Part shown: piece after piece, positions 19,147 through 21,588 of the stretch
Numbering within the stretch: the first letter of the stretch is position 1
Layout: the number at the start of each line of letters is the position of its first letter
Assembly (NCBI RefSeq): GCF_000527035.1
Contig: NZ_AZUK01000001.1
Span: 2,724,501-2,788,500 of the forward strand
DNA length: 64,000 bases
From: Tolumonas lignilytica
GTDB taxonomy: Bacteria > Pseudomonadota > Gammaproteobacteria > Enterobacterales > Aeromonadaceae
Direction of reading: 5' to 3'
Position numbers and translations under genes: made by a program
The notes under the pieces: generated by a model
The model's input: only the letters and a program-made list of their open reading frames with translations
Databases searched by the model: none
What the model was told of the DNA's origin: nothing

Positions 19147-21588
<2,442 letters not shown>

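Follow-up and report, generated by a model that had tools for sequence, protein, structure and literature searches.

A sigma-54 promoter element before pseB probably ties pseudaminic acid synthesis to the polar-flagellar cascade of Tolumonas lignilytica and other Aeromonadaceae

The window, a 64,000-nucleotide stretch of the Tolumonas lignilytica genome, brings flagellar genes and a pseudaminic acid pathway together. On the plus strand the flagellar genes run as far as flgL, where the domain scan began, and are followed by flagellin 1 (8643-9560) and flagellin 2 (10101-11018), both recognized by domain matches, and by flaG, fliD, fliS, fliT and maf. The last of these (13724-15823) encodes a flagellin glycosyltransferase with Maf_flag10_N and MptE-like domains. 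Convergent with maf, the minus strand carries pseI-pseGH-pseF-pseC-pseB, beyond which lies the divergent gene rlmN. The inverting UDP-GlcNAc 4,6-dehydratase gene pseB (20288-21289; TIGR03589, 547.9 bits) is preceded by AAGGAC (21297-21302), its likely ribosome-binding site, and overlaps by 4 nt the transaminase gene pseC (19143-20291; TIGR03588, 547 bits), which is followed by the pseudaminic acid cytidylyltransferase gene pseF (18430-19146; TIGR03584, 333.4 bits). A single protein of 510 amino acids (16923-18455) then joins the hydrolase PseG (TIGR03590, 246.2 bits, residues 4-302) to a PseH-like N-acetyltransferase domain, which matches TIGR03585 at residues 374-498 with 31.4 bits, under the family cut-off. 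For the pseudaminic acid synthase gene pseI (15881-16963; TIGR03586, 518.2 bits) the family match sets in only at residue 28, so the real start codon may be downstream of 16963. As called, neighbouring pse reading frames overlap by 4 to 41 nt, and therefore all five could be transcribed from a single promoter ahead of pseB. The transferase gene maf, which is needed as well and closes the flaG-fliD-fliS-fliT-maf run, starts 16 nt after fliT, and the matrix scans found no sigma-54 or sigma-28 site above thresholds directly before it; its transcription is therefore probably late and from upstream. A terminator-like site was predicted close to the end of flaG, and none in the 38-nt gap before that gene.

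The earlier note had claimed a nearly perfect TTGGCAC-N5-TTGCT before pseB, and the minus strand indeed reads TTGGCAC-ATCGA-TTGCT from 21433 to 21417 (TTGGCACATCGATTGCT), 127 nt from the pseB ATG. Sequence, consensus matrix and comparison all mark it as a sigma-54 (-24/-12) promoter element, with 10 nt between the GG of the -24 box and the GC of the -12 box. It agrees at 12 of 14 specified positions with YTGGCACGRNNNTTGCW, which we take to be the sigma-54 consensus; the matrices for sigma-54 and sigma-28 were likewise built from consensus sequences. The matrix score of 17.4 was reached by none of 100 first-order Markov shuffles of the pseB upstream region, and only two of 5446 background windows of 250 nt scored at least 17. 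In a pattern scan of both strands of the 64 kb, TTGGCACATCGATTGCT was the sole match to TTGGCAC-N5-TTGCT without mismatches; at up to three mismatches the count was close to expectation (82 versus 71.7), so only the exact match is notable. Across the 3.63-Mb genome TGGCAC-N5-TTGCW occurs eight times and the reversed pattern three times. Three of the eight fall within reading frames longer than 150 amino acids; of the five outside, one lies between peptidase-C26 and aldehyde-dehydrogenase genes, and the others stand before pseB, before fliE, before a gene for a rod protein (flgB, judged by its position) and before a SieB-domain gene. The sites before flgB and fliE, which are the expected flagellar sigma-54 operons, equal that of pseB in quality. 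Transcription is predicted to start at 21405-21407 on the minus strand, some 12 nt past the GC of the -12 box. With that start the pseB leader of about 117 nt folds unremarkably (z +0.89), and positions 8000-22800 gave no Rfam match at the gathering threshold. Sigma-54-like matches inside flaG, flagellin 2, pseGH and elsewhere were at background level and were set aside. The top sigma-54 score among nine scanned stretches, 20.0, belongs to a site in another stretch (L061, 2263-2279), 39 nt before a SieB-domain gene of 192 amino acids.

Sigma-28 sites at both flagellins, also part of that proposal, are present as well. Flagellin 1 is preceded by TAAAGTTC-N11-GCCGATAA (8541-8567, 15 of 16 matches) and flagellin 2 by TAAAGTTT-N11-GCCGCTAC (9904-9930, 14 of 16), so that a site of the TAAA-N15-GCCGATAA type stands before the flagellins. 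These are the only sites in the window with at least 14 matches, a level that six shuffles reached 0, 0, 0, 0, 0 and 1 times. A possible second site before flagellin 1, TAAAGATT-N11-ACCGATAT (8465-8491), has 13 of 16 matches; two more sites of exactly 13 lie at 6764 and 41391, neither before a flagellin, and since shuffles gave 0 to 3 of this quality, the 8465 site by itself is not above chance. The flagellin-2 frame was called from a GTG at 10080 but should begin at the ATG at 10101, because it then shares the MAMYINTN start of flagellin 1, to which it is 95% identical. The pattern extends to the family: all 42 distinct Aeromonadaceae flagellin upstream regions examined carried a sigma-28 site with N11 spacing and 12 to 15 of 16 matches, and none of the same 42 had a sigma-54 site above 9.2. 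This set, 43 rows with one duplicate, was drawn from the best 30 loci of 64 genomes with matches; rows that started late or had less than 150 nt upstream were dropped, and lateral-type flagellins lie outside it. Between the two flagellins of the window, an intergenic sigma-54-like site on the minus strand (9771-9787, score 14.1) faces flagellin 1 in antisense.

The family comparison covered 75 Aeromonadaceae genomes, 11 of them (species) from the window genus; 41 had PseB above cut-off, and the upstream region of one copy each was examined. The thresholds of 9.8 or 9.9 for sigma-54 and 13 for sigma-28 were set after the scores were known. A sigma-54 site scoring at least 9.8 precedes pseB at 35 of the 41 loci, and one of at least 9.9 at 34, the difference being L037, whose site scores 9.85 at the usual place. 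The reversed-sequence control gave 0 of 41, and 5.7% of background windows reached the family cut-off. Thirty-four of the 35 sites lie 29 to 170 nt before the ATG, with distances outside the window genus clustering at 29 to 42 nt; the remaining one (L025), at 230 nt, is weak and doubtful. The GG and TGC are retained in all 19 distinct site variants, partly by construction because the matrix rewards those bases. Independent alignments, in which the GG and TGC columns are kept while the flanks have diverged, are therefore the fairer evidence of conservation. Eight PseB-like paralogues of about 40% identity, which we guess to be of O-antigen type, had no convincing sigma-54 site (the best, 9.4 in L226, lacks the -12 GC), although for two of these controls (L220 and L222) no clear start codon stood at the aligned start and the upstream region may be offset. 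A ninth scanned region, before a broken pseB-like copy in one genome (G070), had no sigma-54 site either. Taken together, this comparison makes the site before pseB very probably functional.

That broken second copy lies at about 5951-6946 of an 18-kb contig (L228), where it was matched in several pieces and is accompanied by two partial flagellin matches. In this genome (L068, 10651-11937) and in another member of the window genus (G074; L074, 10518-11867), pseB and rlmN are separated by a divergent gene. Its product in the former has an MptE-like (Maf-type) domain, and the latter looks alike by eye.

Six of the 41 family loci lack the sigma-54 site: L019 and L027 of the window genus (L027 with only 337 nt upstream, at a contig end), L018, L030 and L026 of Aeromonas, and L045. 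Five of the six carry a sigma-28-like site. The two of the window genus share TAAAGTAT-N11-GTCGCTAT, with a sigma-28 score of 15.1, and the Aeromonas loci have T[C/T]AAGTTT-N12-GTCGATA[T/A], with scores of 13.3, 13.3 and 15.8, respectively. None of the five was equalled in 100 shuffles each, a score of 13 is attained by 0.6% of background windows, and none of the other 36 family loci reaches it (Fisher p 8e-6, resting on five loci that represent only two independent alleles). In the three Aeromonas the sigma-54 position can still be aligned and has decayed (CTGGAGTCTTATTTGTT and the like versus CTGGTACTTTATTTGCT), and the alignment shows the sigma-28-like boxes kept and the spacer varying. The N12 spacer exceeds the usual length by one nucleotide, so the sigma-28 case is less strong here, and for L018 another scoring places a different, neighbouring sigma-28-like site best. 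Outside the family, sigma-28 scores of at least 13 at pseB were at control level, both at 124 loci of the wider order (2 of 124, and 2 of 124 reversed) and at the best 80 of 567 named loci (1 of 80 versus 2 of 80 reversed, the one case being Alishewanella at 18.5), so no general claim follows.

The sigma-54 site itself extends further. The order sample, taken from a larger group, comprised 394 genomes, of which 145 had PseB; after removal of 21 Aeromonadaceae, 124 loci remained, with flanks of 1.5 kb for 26 and up to about 4 kb for the rest. A site of at least 9.9 precedes pseB at 33 of the 124 loci and at one in the reversed control; at 12 or more the counts are 23 and 0, with 1.9% of background windows. 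Similarly, among the best 80 of 567 named pseB loci, which include two Aeromonas species already among the 41, 20 have a site of at least 9.9, as against one when reversed. Within these 80, the site-bearing loci include Pseudoalteromonas, Colwellia, Thalassotalea, Idiomarina, Shewanella, Motilimonas, Reinekea, Marinomonas and Sulfuricurvum, and none of the loci recognized as alphaproteobacteria, betaproteobacteria or firmicutes has one. The named and order samples share some genomes, and through common ancestry their loci are not independent of each other.

Across the order, the site is found more often where flagellar genes are near. With a flagellar neighbour defined as a tblastn match (E <= 1e-6) to a flagellar protein of the window or of its own genome, such that a match to FlrA could be any sigma-54 activator, 28 of 84 loci beside such matches have the site, compared with 5 of 40 loci without them (Fisher p = 0.017, or 0.0009 with family f3 omitted, an omission chosen after seeing the data). 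By family, the site is found at 4 of 4 loci in f16, 6 of 10 in f6, 3 of 4 in f13, 5 of 12 in f10 and 11 of 28 in f7, and at 0 of 11 in f2 and 1 of 10 in f22, neither of which shows a flagellar match in the stretches fetched. Against this trend, f3 has the site at only 1 of 24, f12 at 1 of 7 and f17 at 0 of 3. The order-wide tie is thus present but loose, because 56 of the 84 loci with flagellar neighbours lack the site by this score. In many f3 genomes (e.g. L342) pseB has no sigma-54 site before it, and its immediate upstream neighbour, on the same strand, is a gene with a tblastn match to FlrA.

The genome of T. lignilytica contains both RpoN with AAA+ activators, as befits a sigma-54 promoter, and the polar-flagellar set of FlrA, FlrB, FlrC and FliA: homologues of rpoN, fliA, flrA, flrB and flrC are all encoded, with a FleQ domain in FlrA, PAS-HisKA in FlrB and receiver-AAA-HTH in FlrC. 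Enhancers of the FleQ/FlrA type alone were sought, with GTCAA-N4-TTGAC, which we take to be the FleQ box, at 34 promoters (22 family and 10 wider pseB promoters, flgB and fliE). Five had a box with 8 of 10 matches and the other 29 at most 7 of 10. Three of the five are window-genus loci with the box 8 to 9 nt before the -24 element, a quality reached in 11 to 18 of 200 shuffles; the other two are Aeromonas with the box at other distances, equalled in 6 and 14 of 200. FleQ/FlrA-type palindromes numbered 33 in the window, where 36 were expected by chance, and those near promoters were not common to flgB, fliE or most pseB loci; they were rejected as candidates.

The explanation that best fits the site, its conservation, the gene order, the flagellin sigma-28 sites and the presence of rpoN, fliA and flrABC is that 21417-21433 acts as a true sigma-54 promoter, from which pseB-C-F-GH-I is transcribed as a middle member, of the hook-basal-body tier, of the polar-flagellar cascade, a reading we hold with considerable confidence. 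RNA polymerase with sigma-54, opened by a flagellar enhancer-binding protein, would start near 21406, the activator more likely being FlrC-phosphate of the FlrBC pair than FlrA. The pse genes, presumably co-transcribed, would make CMP-pseudaminic acid, the flagellins would follow from their sigma-28 promoters after hook completion, and Maf would attach the sugar in the cytoplasm before export. Weighing against this explanation are the six of 41 family loci without the site, the seventh (L025) with a weak one at 230 nt, the 56 order loci that have flagellar neighbours but no site, the failure to find a recognizable enhancer box at the promoters scanned, a weak sigma-70-like match over the same bases, and the many non-flagellar activators that sigma-54 serves.

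The earlier note proposed a simple timing rule, with the CMP-sugar made one tier before the flagellin it decorates; a stricter reading would make this lead obligatory. The sigma-54 site at pse and the sigma-28 sites at both flagellins stand, as do their family-wide counterparts (35 of 41 pseB loci, and 42 of 42 flagellin upstream regions from the best 30 loci of 64 genomes), but the timing rule itself has only partial support. At five of 41 Aeromonadaceae pseB loci the sigma-28-like site that replaces sigma-54 would make sugar and flagellin share one tier, and expression of maf is probably late. In V. cholerae, flaA itself depends on sigma-54 (PMC3120886). In A. caviae, moreover, flagellin glycosylation is reported to precede chaperone binding and export (PMC4065374); this order is post-translational, so a transcriptional lead is not required. 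We regard an obligatory lead as rather doubtful. The promoter could also be real but driven by a nitrogen, envelope or other non-flagellar enhancer-binding protein, with pse outside the flagellar tier. Sigma54_activat matched 16 times in the genome, 13 times strongly, no FleQ-type enhancer was found at the promoters scanned, and the site is missing at 56 of the 84 order loci that have flagellar neighbours; yet the site is commoner beside flagellar-gene matches, is absent or rare in the stand-alone pse clusters of f2 and f22, and gives way at five family loci to a flagellar sigma-28-like site, and we consider this explanation quite unlikely. Finally, an accidental match, with pseB transcription starting instead at a sigma-70 promoter within the 300-nt intergenic region, is highly improbable, since a weak 9/12 sigma-70-like match overlapping the bases of TTGGCACATCGATTGCT is no more than chance (1 found versus 1.6) and all the conservation evidence stands against it.

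Returning to the middle-tier sigma-54 promoter, pseB appears to be kept inside the flagellar regulon by selection, its exact tier apparently being changeable. Whether the pse operon as a whole is so kept with an exchangeable sigma factor, sugar synthesis having moved out of the hook tier and into that of the filament in some Aeromonadaceae, we judge evenly balanced; if true, coupling to flagellar production would matter, rather than an earlier start.

The primary paper on the Aeromonas cascade, by Wilhelms in 2011, may already place pse/flm genes in a tier. Descriptions of the four-tier polar-flagellar cascade of Vibrio and Aeromonas, which is alike in its FlrA, FlrBC, sigma-54 and then sigma-28 genes, give pse/flm genes no tier in the relevant parts of PMC3658858 and PMC3120886. 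In H. pylori and C. jejuni, flagellin-glycosylation enzymes are grouped, as here, among the RpoN-dependent middle flagellar genes, but the activator is FlgSR and pseB is not named in the pertinent text of the review (PMC3930126); here the site lies directly before pseB, in gammaproteobacteria with FlrABC. Similarly, H. pylori jhp0106, a Maf-like gene in the flaB operon, is a flagellin-glycosylation gene under an RpoN promoter, but this transferase gene is read through from a flagellin and has no dedicated sugar-pathway promoter (PMC5368276, in the section concerned). A search of open-access literature, with few subscription papers, and of the relevant portions of PMC7874193, PMC3426422, PMC3162934, PMC4691044, PMC4481668 and PMC7677240 turned up no mention of a gammaproteobacterial sigma-54 promoter at pseB/flmA, nor did a term search within PMC7591256, PMC3948606, PMC7970052 and PMC8036289, the third of which cites a paper on a Xanthomonas flagellin-glycosylation island. 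The principle is thus already in print for Helicobacter and Campylobacter, and the pseB case described here would be a new and widely distributed instance of it.

In these bacteria sugar synthesis seems to be built into the flagellar programme, with some relatives apparently relying on the sigma-28 switch instead. This gives a rule, testable at the level of sequence, for the coupling of a costly nucleotide-sugar pathway to flagellum assembly, and it may help to separate flagellar pse clusters from those of capsule or LPS. The natural sigma-54 and sigma-28 variants could also be used to find out if it matters which is expressed first, sugar or flagellin.
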